A stretch of DNA of 64,000 nt, taken from positions 1-64,000 of the forward strand of contig CACWPM010000008.1 of assembly GCA_902762795.1 (NCBI GenBank), read 5' to 3'. The position numbers were made by a program, and so were the translations under genes. Below are positions 7,992-62,639 of the stretch, in pieces (within the stretch, counting starts at the first letter, position 1; every line of letters begins with the position of its first letter). The stretch comes from Fibrobacter succinogenes. GTDB taxonomy: Bacteria > Fibrobacterota > Fibrobacteria > Fibrobacterales > Fibrobacteraceae. The notes under the pieces are model-generated. The model did not search any database, was not told the origin of the DNA, and was given only the letters and a program-made list of their open reading frames with translations.

Positions 7992-9533
7992 ATGTGGGAT
8001 AAATCGTATTTAGAAAAGTTGAGCGAACGCAATGCCAAGGCCCAGGCCGGTGGCGGCGCCGCTCGTGTAGAAAAGCAGCATTCCCAGGGCAAGCTCACCG
8101 CTCGCGAACGTCTCGAAATCCTTTTTGACAAGGGCACGTTCAAGGAAATCGGTGCCATGCGCCTCTCCCAGAGCATCGAGCTCCCGGAATCCAAGCGCAT
8201 TTACGGTGACGGTGTCGTGACGGGTTACGGCAAAATCAATGGTCGCCCGGTTTACGCTTGCTCCCAGGACTTCACGGTGAGCGGCGGTTCTCTCGGTTCC
8301 GCACACGCAAAGAAGATTTGCCACGTGATGGACCTCGCCCTTGATTCCATGGTGCCGTTCATCAGTATCAACGATGGCGGTGGCGCACGTATCGAAGAAG
8401 GCGTGAGCTCCCTCGACGGTTACAGTGGCATTTTTGCCCGTAACACTTGGGCAAGCGGCGTGATTCCGCAGATTTCCGTGATTCTCGGACCGTGCGCCGG
8501 TGGTGCATGCTACTCCCCGGCTATTACAGACTTTATCTTCATGACCGAAAAGACGAGCCAGATGTTCATCACGGGCCCGGCAGTCGTGAAGGCTGTGACT
8601 GCTGAAGTCGTGACCCCGGACCAACTTGGTGGCGCAGGCGTTCATTCTTCCAAGTCCGGTGTCGCACACTTCGTGTACAAGGACGACAAGGAATGCCTCG
8701 AAGGCGTGCGTAACCTGCTCAAGTATCTCCCGCAGAGCAACGTCGACAAGTCCGTCGCTCAGGCCGGTACGATCGTAGACAAGTCCGCCGACATCGAAGA
8801 AATCATTCCGGACAACTTCAAGCGCGCTTACGATGTTCGTGACGTGCTCAACTGCTTTGCCGACAAGGATTCCTTCCTCGAAATCCAGCCGGAATTTGCA
8901 AAGAACGTCGTCATCGGCTTTATCCGCCTCGACGGTAACGTGATTGGCGTTGTCGCGAACCAGCCGAAGTACCTCGCCGGTTCTTTGGACGTGGATGCTA
9001 GCGACAAGGCTGCACGCTTTGTCCGCTTCTGCGACAGCTTCAACATTCCTATCCTTACGCTCGAAGACGTTCCGGGTTACATGCCGGGCACGAAGCAGGA
9101 ACACAACGGTATTATCCGCCACGGCGCAAAGCTCCTCTTTGCTTACGCCGAAGCAACAGTGCCGCGCGTGACGCTCATTTTGCGCAAGGCTTACGGTGGC
9201 GCATACATCGCCATGAACAGCAAGAACCTCGGTGCAGACTGCGTGTTCGCTCTCCCGATTGCTCAGATTGCTGTGATGGGTGCTGAAGGCGCTGTCGACA
9301 TTCTCCGCAGAAAGGAAATCGCCGCATCCGCTGAACCGGCCAAGCTCCGCGAACAGTACATCGCTCAGTACGAAGAAAAGTACTTGAACCCCTACATCGC
9401 CGCCGGTAACGGATTCATCGACGAAGTCATTGAACCGAAGAGCGTCCGCGACCGCCTTGTTTCCGCGTTCGAAAACTTGAAGAACAAGAAGAAAGCAATC
9501 CTCTGGAAGAAGCACGGAAACATTCCGCTGTAA
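7992..9533 (+). CDS. Acyl-CoA carboxylase carboxyltransferase subunit (PccB/AccD5-like)
   Basis: A 513-residue crotonase-fold carboxyltransferase of the propionyl-/acetyl-CoA carboxylase beta family and close to methylmalonyl-CoA decarboxylase/transcarboxylase subunits. It shows the N-terminal KLTARERLEILFDKGTF segment, the oxyanion motif NDGGGARIEEGV, GPCAGGACYSPA and, in the C-terminal half, PGYMPGTKQEHNGIIRHGAK and RKAYGGAY. It moves carboxyl from biotin to acyl-CoA. No biotin carboxylase or biotin carrier is in the window. Whether the substrate is acetyl- or propionyl-CoA is not decided by what can be seen. Position behind fabD suggests supply of malonyl or methylmalonyl units. Confidence 0.9.
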   Translation: MWDKSYLEKLSERNAKAQAGGGAARVEKQHSQGKLTARERLEILFDKGTFKEIGAMRLSQSIELPESKRIYGDGVVTGYGKINGRPVYACSQDFTVSGGSLGSAHAKKICHVMDLALDSMVPFISINDGGGARIEEGVSSLDGYSGIFARNTWASGVIPQISVILGPCAGGACYSPAITDFIFMTEKTSQMFITGPAVVKAVTAEVVTPDQLGGAGVHSSKSGVAHFVYKDDKECLEGVRNLLKYLPQSNVDKSVAQAGTIVDKSADIEEIIPDNFKRAYDVRDVLNCFADKDSFLEIQPEFAKNVVIGFIRLDGNVIGVVANQPKYLAGSLDVDASDKAARFVRFCDSFNIPILTLEDVPGYMPGTKQEHNGIIRHGAKLLFAYAEATVPRVTLILRKAYGGAYIAMNSKNLGADCVFALPIAQIAVMGAEGAVDILRRKEIAASAEPAKLREQYIAQYEEKYLNPYIAAGNGFIDEVIEPKSVRDRLVSAFENLKNKKKAILWKKHGNIPL

Positions 9534-9705: not shown

Positions 9706-9955
9706 ATTTTCGGTGTTTTATGCTACCATTTTTCAATTTTTTTCGAATTTGGTAACATATTTTATACTTTATTCGTATTTATTTTGCGTAAAGCACAATA
9801 TAACGTGTTGCCAAATCAGCTAATTTTTCAATTTTGGTAACACTAGCTCAGCAAATAAGCACGAATTCCGCCCTACTTTTGGTTAATTTATTCAAAATTT
9901 ATAATACCAAATTGTATTTTTTCACTGAATTGGTATCATATTTTCGCATTTTAGC
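9706..9955. repeat. Three-unit 39-bp palindrome element, copy 1
   Basis: This AT-rich intergenic stretch holds three inverted-repeat units, each exactly 39 bases: 9720-9758, 9805-9843 and 9901-9939. The arms follow ATGNTACCAAA and TTTGGTANCAY around a 15-base or slightly longer centre. Unit centres are 85 and 96 bases apart. A second copy with the same unit length and almost the same spacing lies at 47957-48207. Parts of the spacers are also shared (TTCGTA between units 1 and 2, TTAATTTAT before unit 3). It sits between two convergent genes, so it is not an ordinary promoter. Function unknown. Confidence 0.8.
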
Positions 9956-10008: not shown

Positions 10009-10803
10009 TTACGCAAGCGTTTTCACGAGCGTATCGTGCAGCAAGCCGTTGGTGAAAATCACTTGTTCTCCATCAACGAACTGCATGGGCGTTCCGTCAA
10101 TGTGCGTTGATTTGCCACCCGCTTCTTCTACGAGGAGAGCTATGGCTGCAATATCCCACGGGTAACTCATCGTCATCACAAAGCAGTCGATGCGACCACA
10201 TGCCGTAAAGCAGCCTTCGATTACCGCAGATCCCAAGCACTTCACACGCTCGAACGTTTCGGCCTCGCGCGCGAAGTTATGAGAATTCTGCGCATTGATT
10301 TTAGCGGCATCCCCCACGTTAAAATCACCATTTGAAACAATCGCATGCATTGCATTAGTTTCACGGCTCACACGAATCGGCTTGCCGTTCATAAAAGCAC
10401 CTTGGCCTTTTGCAGCAGTGTAGAGTTCACCGAGCTTCGGCAAGTTCACGACAGCAACAAGCGGCCTGCCCTCAAAATGCAAAGCAATCGAAATTCCCCA
10501 CAGCGGAATGCCTCGACTAAAGTTCACCGTCCCATCGACAGGATCGATAATCCAACGATAACGCGGATCCGAGCCTTCGATAATACCCGCCTCTTCTGTA
10601 CGAATGGAATGATTCGGGAAAGCCGCTCGAAGCCCATCAACAATAAGCTTTTCGCTTGAAACATCGGCAATGGTCACGACATCCTTCACGGATTTGTAGC
10701 GCACATCGCCCAAGTTGTTTTGAAGTTCTAAGCAAAGGTCGCCCGCCTTGCGGGCAAGTTCCCTTGCGACATTCAAAAAATCTTCTGTATTCATTTCTTT
10801 CAT
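10009..10803 (-). CDS. Inositol-monophosphatase-family phosphatase
   Basis: A 264-residue Mg-dependent sugar/inositol phosphatase. The metal-binding motifs are clear: an EEAG segment near residue 70, DPVDGTVNFSRGIP near residue 90 and WDIAAIALLVEEAGG near residue 215. Members include inositol-1-phosphatase (SuhB) and the HisN-type histidinol-phosphate phosphatase, and the sequence alone does not separate them. The first ATG and one three codons later are both possible starts. The gene stands alone, convergent with the carboxylase gene across the palindrome element. Confidence 0.9.
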   Translation of the reverse strand: MKEMNTEDFLNVARELARKAGDLCLELQNNLGDVRYKSVKDVVTIADVSSEKLIVDGLRAAFPNHSIRTEEAGIIEGSDPRYRWIIDPVDGTVNFSRGIPLWGISIALHFEGRPLVAVVNLPKLGELYTAAKGQGAFMNGKPIRVSRETNAMHAIVSNGDFNVGDAAKINAQNSHNFAREAETFERVKCLGSAVIEGCFTACGRIDCFVMTMSYPWDIAAIALLVEEAGGKSTHIDGTPMQFVDGEQVIFTNGLLHDTLVKTLA

Positions 10804-30745: not shown

Positions 30746-30760
30746 ATCCAATTTCCTGAT

Positions 30761-31378
30761 CGTGAGCCGTAAGCGACCGGTACTAACCGGTCGTGTTCGT
30801 GGGAGCGAGGCGATGACGGAGTCCCCGCCTTGCTTAAGAGCCGAGCGGTCTCATTAACCGTGAGCGAGAAACGCCTGGCATTAGCCAGGCGTTTTCGCGA
30901 GAGTGAGCGTCGCTCACATATTTCTATGGATTCTAGACGCGAACGGTCTTTCGTGAGCCGTAAGCGACCGGTATTAACCGGTCGTGTCGGCGAGAGTGAG
31001 CGTCGCTCACATATTTCTTTTTGATTCTAGACGCGAACGGTCTTTCGTGAGCCGTAAGCGACCGGTACTAACCGGTCGTGTCGGCGAGAGTGAGCGTCAC
31101 TCACATATTTCTATTGATTCTAGACGCGAACGGTCTTTCGTGAGCCGTAAGCGACCGGTATCAACCGGTCGTGTTCGTGACCTTTGGCCACTTAGCGCTT
31201 TAGCGCTTATGTGGACATGGCCACCTTTAGGTGGTAGCGAGGCGATGACGGAGTCCCCGCCTTGCACAAGAGCCGAGCGGTCTGATTTCCCGTGAGCGAG
31301 AAACGCCTGGCATTAGCCAGGCGTTTTCGCGAGAGTGAGCGTCGCTCACATATTTCTATGGATTCTAGACGCGAACGG

Positions 31379-44450: not shown

Positions 44451-44612
44451 TTTAGGTATGAGCACGGACCTTCGGTCCTTTGGGGTATGGGCTCGTGCCT
44501 ACGGCACTCTGAGGTAAAAATGTTATATACAAAATCACGAACCTCAAAGCGAAGCGAGCTCAAAGGGGCTTTAGCCCCGACCTCATAGCCCATAGCGAGC
44601 CTGCGAGCGTTC
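44451..44612. repeat. CTCATAGCCC/GGTATGGGC hairpin repeats between lolC/E and lolD
   Basis: Small hairpins with different stems share the same flanks: GGACC/GGTCC and GTGCC/GGCAC around 44460-44510, and GGGGC/GCCCC near 44564-44577. They are joined by CTTTGGGGTATGGGCT or its complement. Other members occur at 40960-41073, 45861-45910, 46256-46315, 54880-54915 and 55140-55240. Confidence 0.7.
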
Positions 44613-45860: not shown

Positions 45861-46249
45861 TTTGGGGTATGGGGTCGTGCCTTCGGCACTTTGGGGTATG
45901 GGCTATGGGCAATAAAAGTTGTCATCATTTTTCTAATCATCACAACTTTCGAACTAAGTTTTTCAAAACAGACATCATCTATATAATTCAAATCATGAGC
46001 TAACTGCAATTGATATTCTACTTCAGAAGATGAACCAATTGCAATCTGCAAGAACTGGTTGAATTCAGCTTGAGTTTTTCGACCACAGCCCTCAGCTATA
46101 TTTGTAGGGATAGAAGCAGAAGCCCTTCGTATCTGAGATGTCAAGCCATAGAGTTCTTCTCGAGGAAAACATTTTCCAGTAACTTGATAAATGTCCAGAG
46201 TCAAAGAATGCCCCTGGTTCCAAATCTCAAGTGATCGAAAATCTCTCAT
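45857..46249 (-). CDS. Four-helix-bundle protein (S23/IVP family) with a repeat-derived tail
   Basis: A 130-residue member of the four-helix-bundle family first known from 23S rRNA intervening sequences, here between lysS and the lol genes. Typical segments are FRSLEIWNQG, SQIRRASASIPTNIAEGCGR and EFNQFLQIAIGSSSEVEYQL. The last ~17 residues (SPYPKVPKARPHTPK) are encoded by the dispersed GGTATGGGC hairpin repeat at 45861-45910. The repeat therefore supplies the C-terminus and overlaps the lol permease start. Its cellular role is unknown. Confidence 0.85.
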   Translation of the reverse strand: MRDFRSLEIWNQGHSLTLDIYQVTGKCFPREELYGLTSQIRRASASIPTNIAEGCGRKTQAEFNQFLQIAIGSSSEVEYQLQLAHDLNYIDDVCFEKLSSKVVMIRKMMTTFIAHSPYPKVPKARPHTPK

Positions 46250-46329: not shown

Positions 46330-47835
46330 CTAAACTTCCGGCTTCATGAGCGGGAAGAGCTGCACGTCGCGGATGGTCTGCTGGTTCGTGAGGAGCATGA
46401 CCATGCGGTCGATGCCGAAGCCCACGCCACCCGTCGGCGGCAGGCCAGATTCGATAGCATGCATGAAGTTTTCGTCCATCGGGTGCGTTTCACCTTCGCC
46501 ACCGCGGCCACGGCGGACCTGATCTTCCAAAAGTTCGCGCTGACGGATTGGGTCGTTAAGTTCGGTGTAAGCGTTACCAAGTTCCCAGCCGTTGGCATAC
46601 GGTTCAAACTGTTCGATAAGGCCTTCGATTGTGCGGTGCTTCTTGCAGAGCGGAGTGCTTTCCGTCGGCATGTCCTTGATGAACGTCGGCTGGATGAGCT
46701 TGTCTTCAACAGTGAGTTCGAAGAGTTCCAAGATGCCACGACCGCGAGAGAATTCGCCATCAAGATGACCGCCGAGTTCTTCCATCTTGGCCTTGATTTC
46801 GTCGTCGCTCATTTCGTTGACCTTGAGGCCGCCGAACTTTTCAATGGCTTCAATCATGCTGTAGCGCGGCCACGGGGCCTTGAAGTCGATTTCCTTGCCC
46901 TGATACTGAATCTTCGTTGTGCCGTTTGCTGCAATGCAAGCGCGTTCGTAGATGTTTTCGAAGTGCACCATCATGTCGTTGTAGTCGGCATAAGCTTCGT
47001 AGAATTCGAGGCCAGTGAATTCCGGGCTGTGCGTGCGGTCCATGCCTTCGTTGCGGAAGTTCTTCGAGAATTCAAAGACCTTTTCCATGCCGCCCACGAT
47101 GCAGCGCTTGAGATAAAGTTCCGGAGCGACGCGCAAGTAAAGCGTCATGTCGCAAGCGTTGTGGTGCGTGGTAAACGGACGAGCGTTCGCGCCACCGTAA
47201 ATCGGCTGGAGCGTCGGCGTTTCCACTTCGATGAATCCCTTTTCAATCAGGTATTCGCGGATAGCCTGCATGATCTTGGAACGCTTGATGAAGACTTCCT
47301 TCACGTCGTCGTTCAAAGCCATGTCGATATAGCGCTGACGGTAGCGGGTATCCACGTCGGCAAATTCGTTGAACACAACCTTGTTGCCGTTTTCGTCAAT
47401 CTTTTCCTTAGCGACCGGAAGCGGGCGCACAGCCTTCGAAAGCATCGTCACCTTTTCGGCACGCACAGAGTATTCACCGCTCTGCGTTTCGAACATCGTA
47501 CCGTTCACACCGATGAAGTCACCGAGGTCGGTCATCTTCACAATTTCGTAGTTTGCCTCGCCCACTTCGTCACGGGCAACCACAACCTGCAAGCGACCAT
47601 AGCGGTCCTTGAGGTGCATAAAGCACATCTTGCCCTTGCGATTGAAACGCACCACGCGGCCGGCAAATGCAACCGGTTCCTTAGAAGCCATCAAAGCTTC
47701 CTTATTTTCCTTCAAAACCTTGGAATCATGGGTCCTGTTAAACTTGTGAGGATAAGCCTCTACACCCATTTCCTTGAACTTGTCGAGCTTTGCCAAGCGA
47801 GCCTGCACCTGGTCATTCATATCTTGCATTGCCAT
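46330..47835 (-). CDS. lysS: Lysyl-tRNA synthetase (class II)
   Basis: A 501-residue class II synthetase that charges tRNA-Lys. The N-terminal OB-fold anticodon domain (about 55-150) contains GRVVRFNRKGKMCFMHLKD. Motif 2 is in FRNEGMDRTHSPEFT and motif 3 in GVGFGIDRMVMLLTN near the end. The ATG is preceded by a GAGGT site. It probably leads an operon with the four-helix-bundle and lol genes downstream on the same strand. Confidence 0.96.
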   Translation of the reverse strand: MAMQDMNDQVQARLAKLDKFKEMGVEAYPHKFNRTHDSKVLKENKEALMASKEPVAFAGRVVRFNRKGKMCFMHLKDRYGRLQVVVARDEVGEANYEIVKMTDLGDFIGVNGTMFETQSGEYSVRAEKVTMLSKAVRPLPVAKEKIDENGNKVVFNEFADVDTRYRQRYIDMALNDDVKEVFIKRSKIMQAIREYLIEKGFIEVETPTLQPIYGGANARPFTTHHNACDMTLYLRVAPELYLKRCIVGGMEKVFEFSKNFRNEGMDRTHSPEFTGLEFYEAYADYNDMMVHFENIYERACIAANGTTKIQYQGKEIDFKAPWPRYSMIEAIEKFGGLKVNEMSDDEIKAKMEELGGHLDGEFSRGRGILELFELTVEDKLIQPTFIKDMPTESTPLCKKHRTIEGLIEQFEPYANGWELGNAYTELNDPIRQRELLEDQVRRGRGGEGETHPMDENFMHAIESGLPPTGGVGFGIDRMVMLLTNQQTIRDVQLFPLMKPEV

Positions 47836-47956
47836 ATTATTTTACCTCGTGAATATATCACGTCTTAAATTTGAACGCGGTAAAGATAGCTTTTTAGCAG
47901 ACAGTAGGAAGTAGGAAGTAGGAAGTTTGCGACCATAAAAAAGAACAGACAGGCCC

Positions 47957-48207
47957 ATTTTGCCGGTTTTATGCTACCAAAAACCATATTTTTCCCATTT
48001 TGGTATCACAAATTTTAACTTGTTCGTACAATTTCAAGGAAGGTTGAACTATACTATGCTACCAATTCGCCACTTTTAGCCAACTTGGTAGCACAAACAG
48101 CGCTACAAAGCCTCCAAATCAGCCAATTTCGATTAATTTATATAAAAAACATGATACCAAAAAGCACTTTTTTCAGCTTTTGGTAGCACTTTTTAGCATT
48201 TTCGGGC
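47957..48207. repeat. Three-unit 39-bp palindrome element, copy 2
   Basis: Three 39-base inverted-repeat units lie at 47971-48009, 48056-48094 and 48151-48189, with centres 85 and 95 bases apart. Arms are ATGCTACCAAAA/TTTTGGTATCAC, ATGCTACCAA/TTGGTAGCAC and ATGATACCAAAA/TTTTGGTAGCAC. It matches the element at 9706-9955 in unit length, spacing and parts of the spacers. It lies between the divergent lysS and 48529 genes. Nearer lysS, at 47903-47926, are three tandem AGTAGGA copies. Confidence 0.85.
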
Positions 48208-48528: not shown

Positions 48529-51500
48529 ATGATAGATGATTATATTTTACAGAGAGATTGTAATTTAATAAATTCATATTTGAACAAAAATGAATCTCTC
48601 CCCAAAGAGAAGTATATTGATTTTTCTTGGAATCCCGCCTTATTCTTTGCAAAAATCATTCTTGCTTCGCAAAATCATACTGCGTTAACCGAAACGATCA
48701 TACAAGCGGATATTGCAGAATATAATCAAGCTAAGGGAACGAATGTCTCGCTAGATTATTTGTTAAACCGATTCTGGTTAAGAAAAGTTTTGGGACAAAT
48801 AAAAATCTCTGAAGCAATATTGCGATTATTCTCGAACGATAAAATTGTAGAAATACCGGAAGAACTTAATGACGACGAATTGACAGAAAACTTCCATTTT
48901 ATGGAATTTTTGGTAAAAAAATACAAATACGAAGATTCAAGAACCTGTGAGATTTCCTCGGAAGTATTTGACTCAATATACATGGAATTCAAGACTTTTT
49001 ATCCTAAAATGCCTGAATTACAAGCTCTTTTGCAAGAATATTTAATAACAAAAGAAAAGGATAAATATGTCTTTGTGTTGTGGAGGCTAGAACTAAAAGT
49101 CAATAAAGAGTTTTTATCATCGTACATTTTATACTCATTGTTCCAAAATAGAGATCCCTCACAGGATGCAGAATCACTAAAAGAATGGTTGGTTGCCACA
49201 AAGTTTATTTTTTGTCCAGAAGCTTTTGAGTCTCTATCTGAATGGCATAAAGAACGTTATATAAAAACAGCAGTGGAATTGTTGAAGAATGAATATGATT
49301 TAGAAGATGGTCATGAGAGCGAAAAATTTTTATTGAATGAAGATTTGAGTTTTTGTTCTTTTTATTCAGCAAAAGACATTATATTGAGAAATGGATTGTC
49401 TGATTATACTATAGAATCAAAAGAACCTCTTGTTCGGTGGTTGAAATTCTTTTCAAATCGAGAGAGAAGGGTAGATCTTTTAGATTATCATATTCGAGAG
49501 GACTGCATAAAGCTTTTGCAATCATTGCTGATTTATTTGATAAAGAATCCTAAAGCTATAGCTCTTTTAGATTTATTTGAAAATAAATCGTATTTACTAT
49601 ATCAAACAATTTTTTATTTAGCGCGAATTAATCCGGCCTATCTGCTAGCATTTGTTGACAATAAACAATATGGGTTAATTTTCTTTTGTTCGTTCCTTAT
49701 ATTGTGCGAGGATTCGTTTAATAAAAAGATTGCTGATGAACATTTTCCTTTCAAGCTAATCGATAAATATACAAGTCTATTTTGTGAAAAAAATTTAATT
49801 AGCAAAGAGAATTATCGAGACGCGTCTTTGCTTTTGATGTTTTTAATTGAGGGTGTATATAATAGTAGATGGCCGGCTTTATACAAAAATGTTTATGAAA
49901 AAGTATGCTCTTTTCCTATATACGAGAAGCCAACAAATTTTTTTACATCAGAGGCGTTAGACTGTAGTAAAAAGAATGCTAAAGATATATGGATTCAACT
50001 TATTCGACAGATAAAAATATGTGAATTTAAATATTTATTTTTCTTTTATACAAAGACCGAATCCGTTGAGAAAAATCAATGTTTTGGTTTGATAAAGGAC
50101 TTATATGAAAACTCTGTTCTAAAAAACGAAAAGTTTGATTATTGGAGTGAATGGAATGAAATTGATTCGCTTGAATGGGGACTCTTTTTTAATCAACTCT
50201 GTGAATCTGGACTATTAAGAGATTTTTGCTTAAGTATTTTTGGTTATCTCAGTTTTGATGAAAACGAAAGTGATTTTGGAAAAAAATATTCTGGTCCAAA
50301 AAAGCTTCGCTTACATCTAAAATTATTGTGCTCAGTCTATTCTGAATGGTGTAAGTATGAAAGCAATGAGAAAGTGGAAATATTGGAAGAATGTATTGTT
50401 GTAATTCTTCAAAATTGCTTTGTAAATAGAATTGAAGAGAAAAAGATTGCTGTTTTTGATTTGTTGTATGAATCGCACTGGGGTGTTGGTTTTAAAACAG
50501 AGTTGTTTCCGCAGGTAATTGATGTGTTGATGTCTTTTTCTGAAGCAAATAGAAAACGTGTTCTTTTGGCGATGTCAAAGGGCGATGATTTAAAGCTGAT
50601 GATAAAGGCCTATAATTTAATAGATAATGAAAATGATCAAAAACTATTAAAGGAATTGATGGATTTTTCAATAGATGTTGAACGCTCAATTTCATTTTTT
50701 GATGATTACATCTCCTTCTTGCGTGATTTGTATAATTCGCATATTAATAATGAGCTTGCGGATAAGCTTTATGAGAAATTGGAGAAAAATGTTGAACAAC
50801 GGGCGAATGGTCAAATTGTTGCCTCATTTGTGCTTAATGCTCAAATTTTGAAATTGTATAGCATGTTTTGGCACGGTGATGAAAAAAGTTTAAGTGATTA
50901 TAAATGTCCTTATAAGGATGTCGATGGCCGGTTCAAGGATGGCTTGAACAATTTGGAAAATGAGCGCTGTTTTTTGTTGACGCTAATGTATATCAAGAAT
51001 GGAAAAAATGAGGATGCCCAGAGAATTGTAAAAAGGATTAGATGTCAAGACTCTGATTTTTTTGCTTTGAAATATAAGTCGTTTGCTCTATACTTGTCTG
51101 TTTTTGATTCAAAAAATAGTTCCAACTATGCAGAATTATTAAAACAGTGTGATGCACTAATTGATTTGTCAAAAAATAAAATGTGGGCGAAAGAAAAAAT
51201 ATCCTATGATGGACTTCAATATCTGTATTATGCAAAGGTGCGCCTTTTAGAAAAAATTGGGGATTGTGATAAACTCTATCGATTCTATAATTCTGTAGAA
51301 GATGACTATCATGCTGTTTTTGAATTTGCGAAACCGGTTATGGCTTGCCTGCTCAATCAGGGCCGGAATGTGGAGGCCATTAAAGTATGTAATACGATTC
51401 GTCCATCTGAAAAGGAAATGCTGGAATATGAAAAACTAAAGAAAAGTATTCCAGTAGAAAATGAAATTTCTCGCTTAGCTAATTCCTATAAGGATATCCT

Positions 51501-52131
51501 ATGTTTAAGTAAAGAAGATCGATTCAAAGTCTTGCCGGATGTCGTGTGTAAACATCGAGAAAATGTCAGCAGTTTTGTTATTCATTCAGTATATTTTTGC
51601 TTGGAAAAAATTCTTCGAAAGATTAAAACACTAAAACTTTTGCCAGAAGATAATAAAACTGATTTAATTCAGATAACAATTGAAGCATATCTAAAGACTT
51701 TAAATTACGAAAACGATAAGGATCAACCGCATCGAGGTCTTTCGTCATCGAAGAAACAAGCCGGTGAGTTGGATTTTGTATTAGATTTTGATACATTTTC
51801 CGTTGTTTTTGAAGCCGTAAGGTGTGATTCGTTTAGTCAAAATGTAAGAGAACATATCTTAAAAATATTCCATTATGATTCGTCAAAAAGAATTTTCGTT
51901 AACTTGTTGTATTATGAAGGAAACAATTCTGATTTCTTGAATCATTGGGAAATAATTACTCAAAAAACATCCAATAATTCAGATGTCGTGTATCCACAAA
52001 ATTTTAAATGTTTGTCTTGTAAAGATATCTCTAATGAATTTGGGAATGCTTCAATTAAAGTTTTGAAAAATACTCATGAAAACGAATTAGAATTTTATCA
52101 TATATTTGTCAATTTAAGTTATGCGGATTAA
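48529..52131 (+). CDS. Unrecognised 1200-residue helical protein, candidate defence protein
   Basis: A very large, mostly alpha-helical protein with no transmembrane segment and no family recognised over residues 1-1050. The gene is visibly more AT-rich than its neighbours, with many AAA, TTT and ATT codons, and lies between housekeeping genes, which suggests transfer. An AGAGG site precedes the ATG. The C-terminal ~150 residues contain SSSKKQAGELDFVLD at about 1072-1086 and SVVFEAVR near 1091-1098. A GELDF aspartate followed 13 residues later by a Glu in a beta-strand resembles a degenerate PD-(D/E)XK nuclease core as found at the ends of some large anti-phage proteins. That reading, and a defence role, are inference. 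Confidence 0.85.
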   Translation: MIDDYILQRDCNLINSYLNKNESLPKEKYIDFSWNPALFFAKIILASQNHTALTETIIQADIAEYNQAKGTNVSLDYLLNRFWLRKVLGQIKISEAILRLFSNDKIVEIPEELNDDELTENFHFMEFLVKKYKYEDSRTCEISSEVFDSIYMEFKTFYPKMPELQALLQEYLITKEKDKYVFVLWRLELKVNKEFLSSYILYSLFQNRDPSQDAESLKEWLVATKFIFCPEAFESLSEWHKERYIKTAVELLKNEYDLEDGHESEKFLLNEDLSFCSFYSAKDIILRNGLSDYTIESKEPLVRWLKFFSNRERRVDLLDYHIREDCIKLLQSLLIYLIKNPKAIALLDLFENKSYLLYQTIFYLARINPAYLLAFVDNKQYGLIFFCSFLILCEDSFNKKIADEHFPFKLIDKYTSLFCEKNLISKENYRDASLLLMFLIEGVYNSRWPALYKNVYEKVCSFPIYEKPTNFFTSEALDCSKKNAKDIWIQLIRQIKICEFKYLFFFYTKTESVEKNQCFGLIKDLYENSVLKNEKFDYWSEWNEIDSLEWGLFFNQLCESGLLRDFCLSIFGYLSFDENESDFGKKYSGPKKLRLHLKLLCSVYSEWCKYESNEKVEILEECIVVILQNCFVNRIEEKKIAVFDLLYESHWGVGFKTELFPQVIDVLMSFSEANRKRVLLAMSKGDDLKLMIKAYNLIDNENDQKLLKELMDFSIDVERSISFFDDYISFLRDLYNSHINNELADKLYEKLEKNVEQRANGQIVASFVLNAQILKLYSMFWHGDEKSLSDYKCPYKDVDGRFKDGLNNLENERCFLLTLMYIKNGKNEDAQRIVKRIRCQDSDFFALKYKSFALYLSVFDSKNSSNYAELLKQCDALIDLSKNKMWAKEKISYDGLQYLYYAKVRLLEKIGDCDKLYRFYNSVEDDYHAVFEFAKPVMACLLNQGRNVEAIKVCNTIRPSEKEMLEYEKLKKSIPVENEISRLANSYKDILCLSKEDRFKVLPDVVCKHRENVSSFVIHSVYFCLEKILRKIKTLKLLPEDNKTDLIQITIEAYLKTLNYENDKDQPHRGLSSSKKQAGELDFVLDFDTFSVVFEAVRCDSFSQNVREHILKIFHYDSSKRIFVNLLYYEGNNSDFLNHWEIITQKTSNNSDVVYPQNFKCLSCKDISNEFGNASIKVLKNTHENELEFYHIFVNLSYAD

Positions 52132-54848: not shown

Positions 54849-55353
54849 AGATAGGTTACAGGCTATAGGTAATAGGTATTAGGTCGTTCGCCTTCGGCGC
54901 CCTCTGAGGTATGAGAATTGTGTCATCCTGAGCAAAACGCAGTGAAGTCGAAGGATCCATAAGAATGTTAATTTTACGCGGCAAATATAGTAACTTTAGG
55001 GGGGATATTCAATGTTTTAGAGTAAGTGGTTAGTGGTTGACGTCTTCGACGTCCGCGGCTGCATTCGGACATAAAAATAAGCAAGCTTATTTTTGCGTCA
55101 CTCATTTGGCACGCTCTTGGTGGTTAGTAAACAGTAGGCAGTGGACTATGGGGTATGGGGTGTGAGGCATGAGGTCATGCCTTCGGCACTTTGAGGAATG
55201 AGGTATGGGGTGAGAAGTGTGAAGTGTGGGGTGTGAACGTAATGTAATAAGAAATGTTAGTGATTGGTGGTTAGTGGTCAGGCATCGTCATTCTGACACC
55301 GTAGGTGGAAGAATCCAGTAAATTGAAAAAAATTAAATTACATTCTAGAAGTT
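54849..55353. repeat. Repeat-filled intergenic region between prfC and the DNA glycosylase
   Basis: No gene is seen in these 505 bases. In order: TAGGTAATAGGTATTAGGT low-complexity sequence, a GCC/GGC hairpin of the GGTATG family, a GTCATCCTGAGC...GAAGGATCCAT element at about 54924-54962, a GACGTC-TTC-GACGTC dyad, a 10-bp palindrome AAAAATAAGC/GCTTATTTTT at 55073-55094, GGTATGGGGTGTGAGGCAT-type sequence with a TGCC/GGCA hairpin, and a GTCATTCTGAC...GAAGAATCCAGT element at about 55279-55317. Confidence 0.65.
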
Positions 55354-56137: not shown

Positions 56138-59100
56138 TTATTTCTTTTTCTTGTTCGCGCTATTGCCGCGGACATCCTTCGGCTTGAACGTCACATTAAT
56201 TTCAACGTTCGTCACCTTGGAGCCAAGGCCAGCCGGGTCAAACACCTTGTACGTAAACTCGTCAATTCCAGAGAAACCCTTGTTCGGGGTGTACTCGAAA
56301 GAACCGTTCGTTTCGTTCAAGATGATTCTACCGTTGCGCGGTTTCATCACCGTCTTCACAGACTGAAGCTTATCGCCATCCGGATCCTTAGCAGCAGACA
56401 TAAGACCGGTAGAGGCAGGAACTTTGAGCACTTCACCTTCGCGAGTCTGGTAAGAGAGAGGTTTCGTTTCAGGCGGATTGTTCACGGCAACCACCGTAAA
56501 TGTAGCCGTCTTATGAGCGGTTCCGCCATCCGGGTCCGTCACCGTGAAAGTAATGCGTTCCGGCTTGCCCTTCCAATGAGAATACGGCTGAGCCACAATC
56601 ACAGTCTTCTTCGCCTTATCATAAGTCACCTGCAACTGCTTCTGGCCCGTAAATTTCCACTTGAGGTCATCGAAGTTGTGGTCCTTATCGCGGGCGTACT
56701 GGTCGAGCTTAATCGTTGCAATTACACCTTCATTCTGATTTTCCCTGATAGTAAAGTCAGGAATATCACGCATGACAGGAGGTGCATTCACATGCTTAAC
56801 AACAAACTTCACGACAGACTTGTCCGAGGCTCCGGCCGGGTCCGTTGCGGTAAAGACGATCGTTTCTTCACCGAACCAGTTGTCCCTTCTCGGCTTGATT
56901 TCAGCAACGTGGTTAGCATTGATTCTCACATCAATGTTCTTTGCGCCAGAAACGCTCCACCTGATTTCATTCTTCTTGTGGTCCGGATCGCTAACAAAAT
57001 CATCCAAGTTAACGGACTTGAAAGCCTTGCCTTCAAGCGTTGTCTGCCCCGGAATTTCCTTAACAACCGGAGGGTCATTCACCGACTTCACGGTAAAGCG
57101 AACATCGACAGAAGCCTTTTCCTTGCTTGGGTCAAACACATTGATTGTCACTGTTTCGCTACCATTCCAGAATTTGTCCGGAATTTCGACAGTGAGAACA
57201 CCTCTATCGCTGATGTTGTACTTGAGTTCATGCTTTGACTTTTCGGCAGGAGCTTCATCTTCATGCTTCCTGCCCTTCTTGTTCTTTTTGTTATGCTTGG
57301 ACTTTGCAGAAGCAGCCGAAGCAAATGGATTTTCGCCATCAATCGACCACTTGAGTTCGCTAACGCTGTTATCCGGGTCTGTCACAAACTTAGTCAAGTC
57401 AATCGACGGGAAGGTCTTCTTTTCATCGATAACCTGAGCCGGGATGGGCTTAAACTTAGGCGGATCGTTTACAGGAACAACCTCGAACGTTGCCTTGGTA
57501 GACTGTTTGTCACCAGACGGATCCATCACAGTAAACGTAAGTGTTTCCTTACCAAACCAGTTCGGGTTCGGAGTCGTGATAGAAGCACGACCATTCTTGA
57601 TATCTACAACAAGTTCGTTGTTGCCAGAAACAGACCACTTGAGTTCATTCGGCTTGTTATCCGGGTCATTCACAATCTTCGCAAGATCTACCGGAGCAAA
57701 TCTTTCCTTTTCCTTGATTTTCTGGTTGCCAGGTTCCTTGGTAATCACAGGCGGATCATTCACCGGGGTCACTTCAAAGTCAATCTGTTGAGAAGCCCTA
57801 GCGCCTTCCGGGTCCGTCACATCAATTCGAATCTTTTCCGAACCGTTCCAGTATTTTTCCGGAGTCGTCACCACGAGCTGCTTTTTCGCATTGATAGAAG
57901 CCTTGAGGGCGCGAGTCGGAGCGACCTCGATCTTGAGAGAACTCAGCGGATGGTCAGGATCAGAAACAAACGTCGAGAGGTCTATCGGTTCAAAACGTTC
58001 CTTTTCCTTGATTTTCTGAGCCAAAATCGGTCTAATAGTCGGAGGATCATTCACGGATTCAACAATAAAGTTGACAGTCTTGGAATCCGAGGCGCCTTCC
58101 GGATCCTTCACGGTAAACACCACATTGCGTTCGCCATGCCAATGCGGATCGGCAACCTTGATCTGGGCAAGTCCACCCTTATAAATCACGACACTGAAGG
58201 GATCCTTTACATCATCTTCTTCATCGTCATCGCTCTTACTCTTCTTGCCTTTCTTGCCCTTCTTGGTATTTTCAGTCCCAACCTTCAATACCTTGACACC
58301 CCAAGAAAGCTGTTCCATGCTATTATCCGGGTCACGGACAAACTTGCTCAAATCGATATCCTTGAAAGAACCCTTTTCGCGAATCTTCTGCGGCGGGATA
58401 TCCCTCAAGACCGGCGGATCGTTCACCGACACGATTTCAAACGTAATGGTCTGGGAAGTCTTCGCACCATCCGGATCGCTCACTTCGAGCATCATCATTT
58501 CAGGAGCACACCAGAAATCCTTGTTGGGAGCCGTGACCGTAAGCACGCGACTCGGGGAAATTTCAGCCTTGAGTTTCTTCGCGCCAGAAATTTTCCAGCG
58601 GAGTTCAGTCGGCTTATTGTCCGGATCCTTCACAAATTCATCAAGCTTAATTTGCTTGAATGTTTCCTTTTCCTTAATTTTCTGGTCAGGAATCCTATTC
58701 ACGAATACAGGAGGATCGTTCACGCGGGTCACTTCAAAGACCATCTTGTGGCGAGCGTAAGCACCTTCCGGGTCCGTCACGGAGAACGTGAGAGACTCTT
58801 TTCCACTCCACTGTTTGTCCGGGACTGAGATAATCACGGTGTTGTCCCTGCGAACATCCACCTTGAGTTCCCTATTGCCAGAAACTTCCCATTTCAAGGA
58901 AGAAGCCGGGTGGTCCGGGTCTTCGGCGAGAGTCGAGAGGTCGATTGTCTTGAAACGACCGCCTTCAAGTATTGTTTCACCAGTCGGAGCATTAGCTGCA
59001 ATTACCGGAGCATCGTTCACGGAGCGCACTTCAAAGCGAGCAGTCTTGCTTGCAGAAGCACCTTCCGGGTCCGTTACCGTAAACGTAATGTTTGCCGCAC

Positions 59101-62100
59101 CATGCCAATACTTGTTCGGGATAACAATGTTTGCCACCTGATCCGCACCGACCTGAACGCGGAGATTTTCTCCAGCCATATCATCATCGCCCTTGCCCTT
59201 CTTCTTGGAAGAACCCTGACTAATCGGGCTTACCTTGAAAGTCCACTTGAGATCGCTAATCTTGTGATCCGGATCCTTGACAAAGTCAGCAAGCTTGATC
59301 GGCTGGAACTGTTTCTTTTCGTCAATAACCTGGTCGCGGAGATCACGGACAAATTCAGGGACATCGTTCACGGAAAGCACCGTAAAGGTCACTTCCTTGC
59401 TATCCGAGGCGCCATCCGGGTCCGTTACCGTAAAGCGGATCTTTTCAGAACCGTTCCAGCTTGCGCTCGGCGGCGTCACCGTCACCTTGTGTGCAGCATC
59501 CATGGCAACGCGAAGTTCCTTGTGGCCTTCCATCTTCCACTTGAGGCGATTCTTGGCATGGTCCAAATCTTCGACAAAGTTGTCAAGTTCAATCGGCTTA
59601 AACGATTCCTTTTCCTTAATCGTCTGGCTTGCAATTTCCTTCATGATCGGAGGATCATTCACAGAAACAACCGTAAAGGTCGCCGTTGTACGAGCCTTCG
59701 CGCCAGAAGGATCCGTCACCGTGAACGTGATCTTTTCGGAACCGTTCCACATCTTGGTCGGCGTCTTTACAGTCACAAGACCAGTCTTCGACATATCGAC
59801 CTTGAGGTCCTTATTGCCCGTAAAGTCAATCTTCAAACTTTCAAAACGGTCATCCGGGTCAGACACGAGTTCAGCTACGTTGAACGCCGTGAATTCACCC
59901 TTTTCCTGAATAGTCTGGTCGGCAACCTGCTTAATTTCCGGGAGATCGTTCACGGATTCCACCGTGAAGAGAGCCGAAGAAGAAGCCTTGGCACCTTCCG
60001 GATCCGTTACCGTAAACGTAATTTCTTCAGCTCCGTTCCAGAACTTGTTCGGAATAACAATCGTTGCAACCTTGTTAGCGTCTATATCGACCTTGAGTTC
60101 AGATTCCCTCTTCTTGGAACCGGCGGCCGGCTTGCTAGAAACGGAGAACGTGAGTTCAGAGAGCTTGTTGTCCATGTCCTTCACCATGTCGCCAAGCTTG
60201 ATCGGCTGGAACTGTCCTTTTTCACGAATCGTCTGCGGCATCACCTGCTTTACAAACATCGGCACGTCATTCACGGATTCGACCGTGAAGTTCACCGTGC
60301 GTTCATCGCACGCGTTATCCGGGTCACAGACCTTGAAGGTCAACGCTTCGGCACCATGCCACTGCGGTGATGGAGGCGTGATACGCGCAACGTGCGCACC
60401 GTCCATGGCAACCTTGAGTTCCTTGTTTCCAGTAATCGTCCACTTGAGGCGATTCTTGGCGTGGTCAAGATCTTCGACAAAGTTATCAAGTTCAATCGGC
60501 TGGAATTCACCCTTTTCCTTGATGGTCTGTTCACGAATGTCCTTCATGACCGGCGGATCGTTGATAGCCTTTACAGTAAACTTCGCAGAAGACGTTGCAC
60601 GGGCGCCTTCCGGGTCAGTCGCCGTAAACGTCAACGTTTCGGTACCGTTCCACTGTTCATGCGGAATCTTCACTGAAACTTCGTGAGACTTGGAATCGAT
60701 ATTGACCTTGAGATCCCTGTTGCCCGTCACTTCAACCTTCAGCTTGGAGAAGTCGTGGTCAGCATCACTCAAGTAGTCATCCAGAATAAACGATGAAAAT
60801 TCATTCTTTTCGTCAATAGCCTGGTCCGGGATTTTCTTGAATACCGGCGGATCGTTCACAGAACGGACATTGAGAGCGACATCCTGCTTGGCAGAACCGC
60901 CTTCCGGGTCCATCACGGTAAATGTTGCAACAGTGTTGCCGAACCAGCTCGGATCCGGGATTTCAACCGTAGCGACATGATTATCGTCAATAGAAACGTT
61001 AAGAGTTCCCAATTCAGGCATCGGGCCCTGGTGCTTGACTTCGACATCCCAGGAAAGTTCGGAATTCTTGTGATCTTCGTCCTTGACAAATTCATCAAGT
61101 TTAATCTTGGTGAACTGCTGTTTTTCGTTGATGTTCTGGTTCGGAATCGGACGAACGAATTTCGGCAAATCGTTCACGGAATTGACCGTAAACATAGCTT
61201 CACATTCTGCAGAGGCGCCATCCGGGTCCGTTGCGGTAAACTTGATGGATTCGGAACCGTTCCAGAGTTTATTCGGAATGCGAATCGTAGCGACTCCGCC
61301 TGAAACAGAAACCTTCAAGTCCTTGGCACCCGAAATAGCCCACTTGAGCATTTCAACACGATGATCGGGATCCTTCACATACTGACCGAGCTGGATAGGT
61401 GCAAATTCCTGTTTTTCCTCGATCGTCTGGTCAGGAATATTCTGAACAAATTCAGGAGCATCGTTAATGGATTTCACCTTGAAAAGAACATCCTGCGTTG
61501 CGGTCGCACCGGCAGCATCAGTCACCGTAAATGTCACGCGTTCCTGACCGTTCCAGAATTCATTCGGGATTGTCACGATCGCAGAACCGTAATTATCGAT
61601 TTCAATCTTAAGGTCCTTGTTGCCCGAAACAGTCCACTTGAGTTTCATGACATCATCATCAGGGTCCGAGACAAAATCAGCAAGAGAAATCATGTCAAAC
61701 TGATTTTTTTCTTCAATGACCTGGTCAGGAATCTTTTTTGTGAACTTCGGGGGATCATTGACCGGCTGGACTGTAAAGGCGGCCGTCTTGTTGTCACTTC
61801 CGTAATCAGGGTCATTTGCAATAAACTTAATTCTTGCAGCACCATACCAATGTGCATCCGGAACGACAATCGTCGCCACGCGGTTACCGTCAATCGTTAC
61901 AGACAAATCACCATCAGCCTGCGGACCGCCGGCAGGGACAATTTCGGTATCCCACGTAATCTGGTCTTTCTTGTGGTCCGGGTCATTCACAAAATCATCT
62001 AGGCGAATCTTGGCAAACTGCTTGCCTTCCGTAATCACCTGGCTTGGAATTTGGGAGACCACGGGAGGATTGTTCACGGATTCAACGGAGAAATTCACCG

Positions 62101-62545
62101 TTTCAGAAGAGCTTGCGCCCTTGGAGTCCGTTGCCGTAAAAGTCAAATCTTCAGAACCGTTCCAAAGCGCATTCGGAGTCGCAATTTCAACCGTATGGTC
62201 CGGAGCAATCGTTACCTTGAGGTTTTTGTTACCACTTACCTTCCAACGGATTTGCGAAGGTTGGTCCGTGTCGTCCGTGACAAAATTATCAAGTTTAAAT
62301 TTCGAAAAAGTCCCGCCCTCCTGAATAGATTCGCCAGGGATTCCGCTAACTTGAGGCGGTTCATTCGCCGGTGCAGGTTCTGCAACGGGCTCGCTTACAG
62401 GCGCAACAGGAGCTGTTGCCGCTTGTGGTACCGGTGCTGCTTGAGGAGCAGGAGCCGCTGGTGCCGGATTTTGTGCAAACGATGACGTTGCTATCACACT
62501 AGCAGACGCAAGCAAAGTCGCCATGGACCTTTTAAATTTTTTCAT
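56138..62545 (-). CDS. Giant secreted protein of about 20 cadherin/Ig-like repeats
   Basis: A 2135-residue exported protein. The ATG at 62545 is placed 7 bases after GGAG and gives signal peptide MKKFKRSMATLLASASVIAT ending near SSFA. A Pro/Ala-rich stretch (about 26-60) follows, then about 19 repeats of ~100 residues. Each starts with an NDPPV-type motif and contains I-x-EK, a DPDH-type acidic loop, LKW or LRW, WNGSE and FTVTDPEGA, a cadherin-like calcium-binding pattern. A final different domain (about 2030-2120) with FEYTPNKGFSG and FTYKVFDPAG ends in a Lys-rich tail. Three repeats carry long Lys/Asp-rich inserts. It is likely a surface adhesin or matrix protein. Confidence 0.9.
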   Translation of the reverse strand: MKKFKRSMATLLASASVIATSSFAQNPAPAAPAPQAAPVPQAATAPVAPVSEPVAEPAPANEPPQVSGIPGESIQEGGTFSKFKLDNFVTDDTDQPSQIRWKVSGNKNLKVTIAPDHTVEIATPNALWNGSEDLTFTATDSKGASSSETVNFSVESVNNPPVVSQIPSQVITEGKQFAKIRLDDFVNDPDHKKDQITWDTEIVPAGGPQADGDLSVTIDGNRVATIVVPDAHWYGAARIKFIANDPDYGSDNKTAAFTVQPVNDPPKFTKKIPDQVIEEKNQFDMISLADFVSDPDDDVMKLKWTVSGNKDLKIEIDNYGSAIVTIPNEFWNGQERVTFTVTDAAGATATQDVLFKVKSINDAPEFVQNIPDQTIEEKQEFAPIQLGQYVKDPDHRVEMLKWAISGAKDLKVSVSGGVATIRIPNKLWNGSESIKFTATDPDGASAECEAMFTVNSVNDLPKFVRPIPNQNINEKQQFTKIKLDEFVKDEDHKNSELSWDVEVKHQGPMPELGTLNVSIDDNHVATVEIPDPSWFGNTVATFTVMDPEGGSAKQDVALNVRSVNDPPVFKKIPDQAIDEKNEFSSFILDDYLSDADHDFSKLKVEVTGNRDLKVNIDSKSHEVSVKIPHEQWNGTETLTFTATDPEGARATSSAKFTVKAINDPPVMKDIREQTIKEKGEFQPIELDNFVEDLDHAKNRLKWTITGNKELKVAMDGAHVARITPPSPQWHGAEALTFKVCDPDNACDERTVNFTVESVNDVPMFVKQVMPQTIREKGQFQPIKLGDMVKDMDNKLSELTFSVSSKPAAGSKKRESELKVDIDANKVATIVIPNKFWNGAEEITFTVTDPEGAKASSSALFTVESVNDLPEIKQVADQTIQEKGEFTAFNVAELVSDPDDRFESLKIDFTGNKDLKVDMSKTGLVTVKTPTKMWNGSEKITFTVTDPSGAKARTTATFTVVSVNDPPIMKEIASQTIKEKESFKPIELDNFVEDLDHAKNRLKWKMEGHKELRVAMDAAHKVTVTPPSASWNGSEKIRFTVTDPDGASDSKEVTFTVLSVNDVPEFVRDLRDQVIDEKKQFQPIKLADFVKDPDHKISDLKWTFKVSPISQGSSKKKGKGDDDMAGENLRVQVGADQVANIVIPNKYWHGAANITFTVTDPEGASASKTARFEVRSVNDAPVIAANAPTGETILEGGRFKTIDLSTLAEDPDHPASSLKWEVSGNRELKVDVRRDNTVIISVPDKQWSGKESLTFSVTDPEGAYARHKMVFEVTRVNDPPVFVNRIPDQKIKEKETFKQIKLDEFVKDPDNKPTELRWKISGAKKLKAEISPSRVLTVTAPNKDFWCAPEMMMLEVSDPDGAKTSQTITFEIVSVNDPPVLRDIPPQKIREKGSFKDIDLSKFVRDPDNSMEQLSWGVKVLKVGTENTKKGKKGKKSKSDDDEEDDVKDPFSVVIYKGGLAQIKVADPHWHGERNVVFTVKDPEGASDSKTVNFIVESVNDPPTIRPILAQKIKEKERFEPIDLSTFVSDPDHPLSSLKIEVAPTRALKASINAKKQLVVTTPEKYWNGSEKIRIDVTDPEGARASQQIDFEVTPVNDPPVITKEPGNQKIKEKERFAPVDLAKIVNDPDNKPNELKWSVSGNNELVVDIKNGRASITTPNPNWFGKETLTFTVMDPSGDKQSTKATFEVVPVNDPPKFKPIPAQVIDEKKTFPSIDLTKFVTDPDNSVSELKWSIDGENPFASAASAKSKHNKKNKKGRKHEDEAPAEKSKHELKYNISDRGVLTVEIPDKFWNGSETVTINVFDPSKEKASVDVRFTVKSVNDPPVVKEIPGQTTLEGKAFKSVNLDDFVSDPDHKKNEIRWSVSGAKNIDVRINANHVAEIKPRRDNWFGEETIVFTATDPAGASDKSVVKFVVKHVNAPPVMRDIPDFTIRENQNEGVIATIKLDQYARDKDHNFDDLKWKFTGQKQLQVTYDKAKKTVIVAQPYSHWKGKPERITFTVTDPDGGTAHKTATFTVVAVNNPPETKPLSYQTREGEVLKVPASTGLMSAAKDPDGDKLQSVKTVMKPRNGRIILNETNGSFEYTPNKGFSGIDEFTYKVFDPAGLGSKVTNVEINVTFKPKDVRGNSANKKKK

Positions 62546-62639
62546 TTTCATTCTCCGATGCCATACACGCAATCAAAATTTCCCTATGAAATTTTTCAAA
62601 CGTCATTAAAAACGTATTTAAATATAACGCTTTTTCCCA

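Follow-up and report, generated by a model that had tools for sequence, protein, structure and literature searches.

In RAYT/REP systems, one gene with adjoining palindromic elements is accompanied by many dispersed intergenic copies, and the element varies with the protein between lineages. Among replication terminators, RTP has a Ter consensus, TACYAAAT, that is similar to the half-site described here, a likeness which we do not use as evidence. Tus/ter of E. coli comprises 10 sites spanning ~43% of the chromosome (PMC13220808), and in both tus and rtp a site lies in the promoter area of the terminator protein's own gene (PMC10331603). Insertions of the Tn7 TnsE pathway and of IS200/IS605 show a replication orientation bias and prefer the termination region (PMC5371812). 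Here, we describe arrays of long palindromes in a 64,000-nucleotide stretch of Fibrobacter succinogenes DNA (the window) and across related genomes; in the literature searched, we found no paper describing such arrays in Fibrobacter and no fork trap for this genus. Our explanation, to which we assign an overall probability of roughly 0.6, is that the array is read by a candidate sequence-specific protein whose C-terminal domain resembles PD-(D/E)XK nucleases.

Array architecture and distribution

The pattern TACCA-N10..40-TGGTA has six matches in the window versus 0.54 expected, a number reached in 0 of 100 shuffles. All but one of them are exact palindromes of 31 bp, and the six are arranged as two triplets, starting at 9724, 9809 (one mismatch) and 9905, and at 47975, 48060 and 48155. 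The first element (copy 1, 9706-9953) consists of three palindromes of the form TGNTACCAAA-N17-TTTGGTANCA, whose starts lie 85 and about 95 bp apart, equivalent to whole helical turns. It matches our profile R1 with 133 bits (E 1.5e-38) on the minus strand of the window, which corresponds to the plus strand of the family consensus, with its spacing of 95 followed by 85. In this orientation, pal1 (TAATACCAAATTGTATTTTTTCACTGAATTGGTATCA) occupies 9902-9938, pal2 (TGTTGCCAAATCAGCTAATTTTTCAATTTTGGTAACA, with one core mismatch) 9806-9842, and pal3 (TGCTACCATTTTTCAATTTTTTTCGAATTTGGTAACA) 9721-9757, as located by pattern search, genome-wide for pal2, and by the sequence itself. The interstitial motif AYAAANTAA, conserved in alignment A1, lies beside pal3 at 9764-9773 (AATAAAGTA on the minus strand), and ATAAATTAA (TTAATTTAT on the plus strand) lies between pal1 and pal2 at 9883-9891, again on the minus strand. 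Copy 2 (47956-48203; 143.6 bits, E 8.7e-42), situated between lysS and a divergent gene, also reads on the minus strand, with pal1 at 48152-48188, pal2 at 48057-48093 and pal3 at 47972-48008, all found by pattern search; sequence and alignment place its interstitial motifs on the minus strand at 48133-48141 (ATAAATTAA; TTAATTTAT on plus) and 48015-48023 (ACAAGTTAA; TTAACTTGT on plus). The first-pass annotation had reported spacer pieces shared at equal positions, which is correct for TTCGTA (offset 48 in both copies) but not quite for TTAATTTAT, found at offset 159 in copy 1 and 158 in copy 2, with one extra base in the copy 1 spacer.

In the consensus of 49 ungapped copies, read pal1-95-pal2-85-pal3, pal1 takes the form TTGCGAAAAnTGCTACCAAA-N17-TTTGGTANCA and is followed by AYAAATTAA, while AYAAAGTAAAAA immediately precedes pal3. 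The palindrome centres are A-rich, the loops and remaining spacer positions are free, and the 85/95 geometry holds strictly in these 49 copies. Across all dialects, that is, arrays with different half-sites, the only spacings are 61-64, 74, 84-87 or 94-96 bp, corresponding to 6-9 turns of 10.5 bp. Arrays adjoining genes ('home' arrays, see below) were detected within a spacing window of 82-98 bp, inside which values between the two peaks are nearly absent; arrays with GTACCTATAAA half-sites were found without such a limit.

The genome from which the window derives (G000; 3.93 Mb, 89 contigs) contains 34 exact 31-bp palindromes, compared to 1 match for a reversed control pattern. They form 18 loci with 85/95/180 geometry (95 + 85 = 180 bp, either orientation), and the profile model yields about 21. 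Intact arrays of this genome belong to the TACC dialect; degenerate TACT-dialect remnants of one or two palindromes are seen at C13:12503 and C9:136425. Within the genus, profile matches occur in 37 of the 80 genomes; we therefore abandoned the genome count of the strict pattern, which had given 8. About half of the genus genomes have no detected array, which counts against our explanation and implies that array function is dispensable. The phage DNA and viral contigs searched yielded no relatives.

The window holds further repeats of other kinds: a block at 30760-31360, flanked by two ORFs, in which ~93-bp units recur nearly in tandem and contain inverted repeats of their own (GACCGGTA..TACCGGTC, GCCTGGCATTAGCCAGGC), ~47-bp dispersed repeats bearing TCGTGCCTTCGGCACTTTGGGG hairpins at 44452-44527, 45863-45909 and 55163-55209, and a surface-protein-like ORF of 2144 aa with many ~97-aa repeats at 56138-62572.

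The nuclease-domain protein family and its arrays

A gene at C13:10222-11028 of G000 has one of the copies in its 5' region as a home array, and home and dispersed copies match in half-site dialect. Genes of the same family adjoin an array in 13 genomes and several dialects; their transcription invariably leads away from the array, and this holds also where the other neighbour is a different gene. Some family genes have arrays on both sides. The encoded protein has ~276 aa, of which the N-terminal ~150 are variable and without Pfam match. For two family members, Pfam returned no family above cut-off, Tus or RTP domain included; an NCBIfam search gave no match, and a PDB profile search weak matches alone (Cfr10I at E 0.79). 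The C-terminal part matches the end of PADLOC PDC-S68 (7e-30) and HEAT_CxxC_PDDEXK, as well as, weakly, a phage Holliday-junction resolvase family; phage and plasmid proteins gave C-terminal-domain or distant matches alone. Residues E166, D198 and W212-E213-H214 are invariant in 70 of 70 family proteins, and, judged by sequence, E166, D198 and E213 are the conserved acidic triad of a putative PD-(D/E)XK nuclease. The family profile is present in 51 of 126 genomes of the class, in 1-8 copies each.

Of 69 family genes, 33 have an array of at least three palindromes in their 5' region, versus 0 of 69 after shuffling. Beside paralogues, the half-sites differ, being GTACCTATAAA, TACGTACTAA, GTACAGGCCAAA, TGGGCTCCATT, TTTGTCACTAA or AATGGGGATAAA, and TTGCTTATAAAA in another genus, and solo arrays in other genomes carry dialects known beside family genes. 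Protein identity correlates with half-site similarity (Mantel r 0.645, 0 of 5000 permutations), which is consistent with pairing and no proof of it, because protein and half-site are inherited together. A second G000 paralogue (C37) has GTACCTATAAA as its half-site, for which the counts are 39 in G000, 18 in G088, 14 in G074 and 11 in G042, all four of which possess the cognate paralogue, versus none in G065, G066 and G086, which all lack it (Fisher p 0.029); the control pattern gave 0. Across the genus, genomes with R1 matches tend to have family genes as well (odds ratio 5.4, p 0.001), with exceptions both ways: seven genomes with profile matches, the complete G062 among them, have no family gene, and 19 gene-bearing genomes have no match, which counts against our explanation. 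A two-component pairing of the nuclease-domain protein with dispersed cognate arrays nonetheless appears very probable to us.

Conservation, orientation and chromosomal layout

Between the members of 23 orthologous pairs, identity is 96.4% for half-sites, scored only at positions that played no part in detection, 91.3% for interstitial motifs, 77.1% for spacers and 60.9% for the free N position; the difference between half-sites and spacers is highly significant (p 6e-31). By this sequence comparison, the half-sites are under purifying selection. The named lysS loci that match the window's at 95-99% identity come from Fibrobacter MAGs. At the lysS locus, the element is present in relatives of the same dialect, and in G065 and G066 it has TGCTACTAAA half-sites and palindromes one base shorter. 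For five such cross-dialect loci, the array was closer to its orthologue than to other arrays in 9 of 10 comparisons, and most 80-bp flanks were no longer alignable. Half-site and length have thus changed together and in place in this sister lineage, in all three palindromes and at several loci; the G065 copy at 1246954 retains the TACC form. In two lineages (G024 C1:803128 and G091 C28:9752), a precise deletion of ~85 bp has fused pal2 with pal3 in the lysS copy.

The first-pass annotation had suspected a chromosome-level role or a mobile miniature element and had suggested mapping the copies by replichore and strand. Array orientation indeed follows GC skew: all 20 copies of the near-complete relatives G065, G066, G062 and G024 agree with it locally (9/9 in G065), as do 14 of 15 solo arrays in other dialects, judged on short flanks, and 13 of 18 copies of G000, or 14 if the second window copy is judged at larger scale; these counts include orthologous copies, which are not independent. 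The four or five opposing copies of G000 count against our explanation, as does the GTACCTATAAA family, which is not clearly polar (about 8/13, judged by eye). Reversed A-tracts were seen in copies opposing the skew, in a sample too small for a claim.

On contig C1 of G065, the skew flips sign near 600 kb, a change that gene-strand bias does not follow, and parS is located on C2 at 620-624 kb; on these grounds we take 600 kb on C1 as the terminus. The DNA examined had no convincing dif site, and parS was used instead to place the origin. C1 carries copies at 140 and 393 kb (plus) and at 738, 1247, 1366 and 1544 kb (minus), and C3 three more. The 0.8 Mb of C1 nearest the origin and the 0.65-Mb parS contig, ~1.45 Mb together, contain none of the nine (p about 0.013, for a region picked post hoc in a draft assembly). 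In this one mapped genome, the copies appear to flank the terminus and to avoid the origin side. The earlier suspicion is thus partly supported, in that the arrays are polar with replication and appear to flank the terminus where mapped; it had been formed without the cognate nuclease-domain gene, the helical phasing and the coordinated half-site change between species. In each Fibrobacter genome searched (G065, G066, G062, G000), a pair of genes encodes a DnaA C-terminal domain; in G065 they are at C1:749342 and 953122, neither on the parS contig.

Possible roles and relation to described systems

Their palindromic shape and intergenic location would suit transcription-factor operators of a regulon, or RNA hairpins and terminators. 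As annotated at first pass, copy 1 lies between convergent genes (a carboxylase gene, plus, 7992-9533, and an inositol-phosphatase family gene, minus, 10009-10803) and copy 2 between divergent genes (lysS, minus, 46330-47835, and a plus-strand gene, 48529-52131), from which it had been argued that the element is no promoter operator, unless all genomic copies lay upstream of one regulon. Across the genome copies, the neighbours are unrelated (lysS, ispD/pheT, argG, miaB, gatA and others, named by sequence), and the first neighbours of 99 copies are in same and opposite orientation 51 and 47 times upstream (p 0.76) and 51 and 45 times downstream (p 0.61), with no consistent position relative to target genes. 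Because the neighbours are unrelated and randomly oriented, the element is not a regulon operator, and the argument has been borne out. An RNA hairpin was tested by covariation and rejected, as the signal was weak: the pairing excess is slight at position -1 and absent from the inner arms, the loop sequences are unconserved, and an Rfam search of the window gave no match. Operators and RNA structures are thus most improbable. That the array serves solely as an autoregulatory operator of the nuclease-domain gene, with dispersed copies as decoys or relics titrating the protein, would fit the position of the home array in the gene's 5' region; titration, however, leaves both the replication polarity and the apparent terminus-flanking layout unexplained, and we regard this reading as very unlikely.

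More weight attaches to mobility. The GTACCTATAAA arrays, which have four palindromes, form a dispersed repeat family of ~300 bp, 66-81% identical and with defined boundaries, as the first-pass suspicion of a mobile element would have it; such sharp boundaries were observed for this sister dialect, as distinct from the TACCAAA family of the window. Five relatives compared with L412 all lack its array copy at the corresponding locus, where the intergenic flanks are too diverged for reading target-site duplications. At L442, L443, L444 and L450, another intergenic repeat, TCATCCTGAGTCCGTAAGGACGAAGGATCCAGTTAA, occupies the locus of a G000 GTACCTATAAA array. Given a dispersed repeat family, a copy absent in relatives, and arrays on both sides of some genes, the arrays have likely spread. 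They could then be selfish satellites, MITE-like units duplicated through the action of the cognate nuclease-domain protein, with orientation and terminus preference reflecting insertion bias and no host function, a reading which also accommodates that copies are numerous only where the genome has the gene, and that TnsE and IS200/605 insertions share orientation bias and terminus preference (PMC5371812). Spread alone, however, does not explain why old copies retain their half-sites while spacers and flanks decay, nor why the dialect switched in place at five loci, so that selection after insertion is needed. Moreover, no terminal inverted repeat or target duplication was found, no transposase motif was recognised, and the youngest-looking family is the least polar. 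We consider purely selfish satellites unlikely; replication-coupled spread of the TnsE or IS200/605 kind is nevertheless the main rival to our explanation, and a fork or terminus role and spread may both hold.

In our explanation, a protein dimer would occupy each palindrome through the variable N-terminal part, helical phasing would align three (or four) dimers along the same side of the double helix, joined into one complex, and the AYAAANTAA motifs would aid this complex by DNA bending. The home array would provide autoregulation of the nuclease-domain gene, and dispersed arrays would spread as short satellite copies, of which the persisting ones would act as polar sites for passing forks or for the terminus half of the chromosome. 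We hold this last role tentatively, at somewhat below even odds; it fits the orientation, the layout and the upstream array, the last of which parallels tus and rtp (PMC10331603). Likewise tentative, and below even odds, is the reading that the arrays constitute a third, convergently evolved bacterial fork or terminus system, in which a PD-(D/E)XK-domain protein assembles on phased triple palindromes and is polar to replication; its recognition code would shift rapidly and jointly across dozens of chromosomal sites, and a single genome would contain several orthogonal codes. If this is true, Fibrobacter gains a candidate polar chromosome system, and more than 20 pairs of protein and recognised DNA, all from one protein family, form a natural series whose code would be readable from sequence because the target sites are already written in the genomes. 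It would also show how dispersed sites can track a drifting DNA-binding protein in place.

The nuclease domain itself is homologous to the C-terminal domain of PADLOC PDC-S68 and HEAT_CxxC_PDDEXK, to which the Fibrobacter protein adds an N-terminal part of ~150 aa and the link to palindrome arrays. With Tn7 (TnsE) and IS200/IS605, the arrays share replication orientation bias and an apparent preference for termination regions, but neither transposon ends nor a transposase nor target duplications are recognisable in them, and the dispersed units are gene-free. RAYT/REP (REPtron, BIME) resembles them in the gene with adjacent palindromes, the dispersed intergenic copies and the lineage-specific sequence that tracks the protein. 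Beside the Fibrobacter elements, however, there is no recognised HUH/Y1 transposase gene but that of a PD-(D/E)XK-like protein without Pfam match, GTAG at the hairpin foot is not common to the dialects, the units are three or four palindromes of 31-43 bp in fixed helical phase, and most families are polar with replication. As in Tus/ter of E. coli and RTP/ter of B. subtilis, polar sites appear to surround the terminus, in the one genome mapped, and a site lies by the protein's gene, and, as in a fork trap, the sites are oriented to the terminus on both replichores (9/9 in G065; 20/20 in the four relatives). They differ in being arrays of ~250 bp with three palindromes, in their protein, for which Pfam detected no Tus- or RTP-family domain in two members, in the several orthogonal dialects per genome, and in that copies also spread. 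The system is therefore organised like RAYT/REP or tus/ter, and is related to neither.
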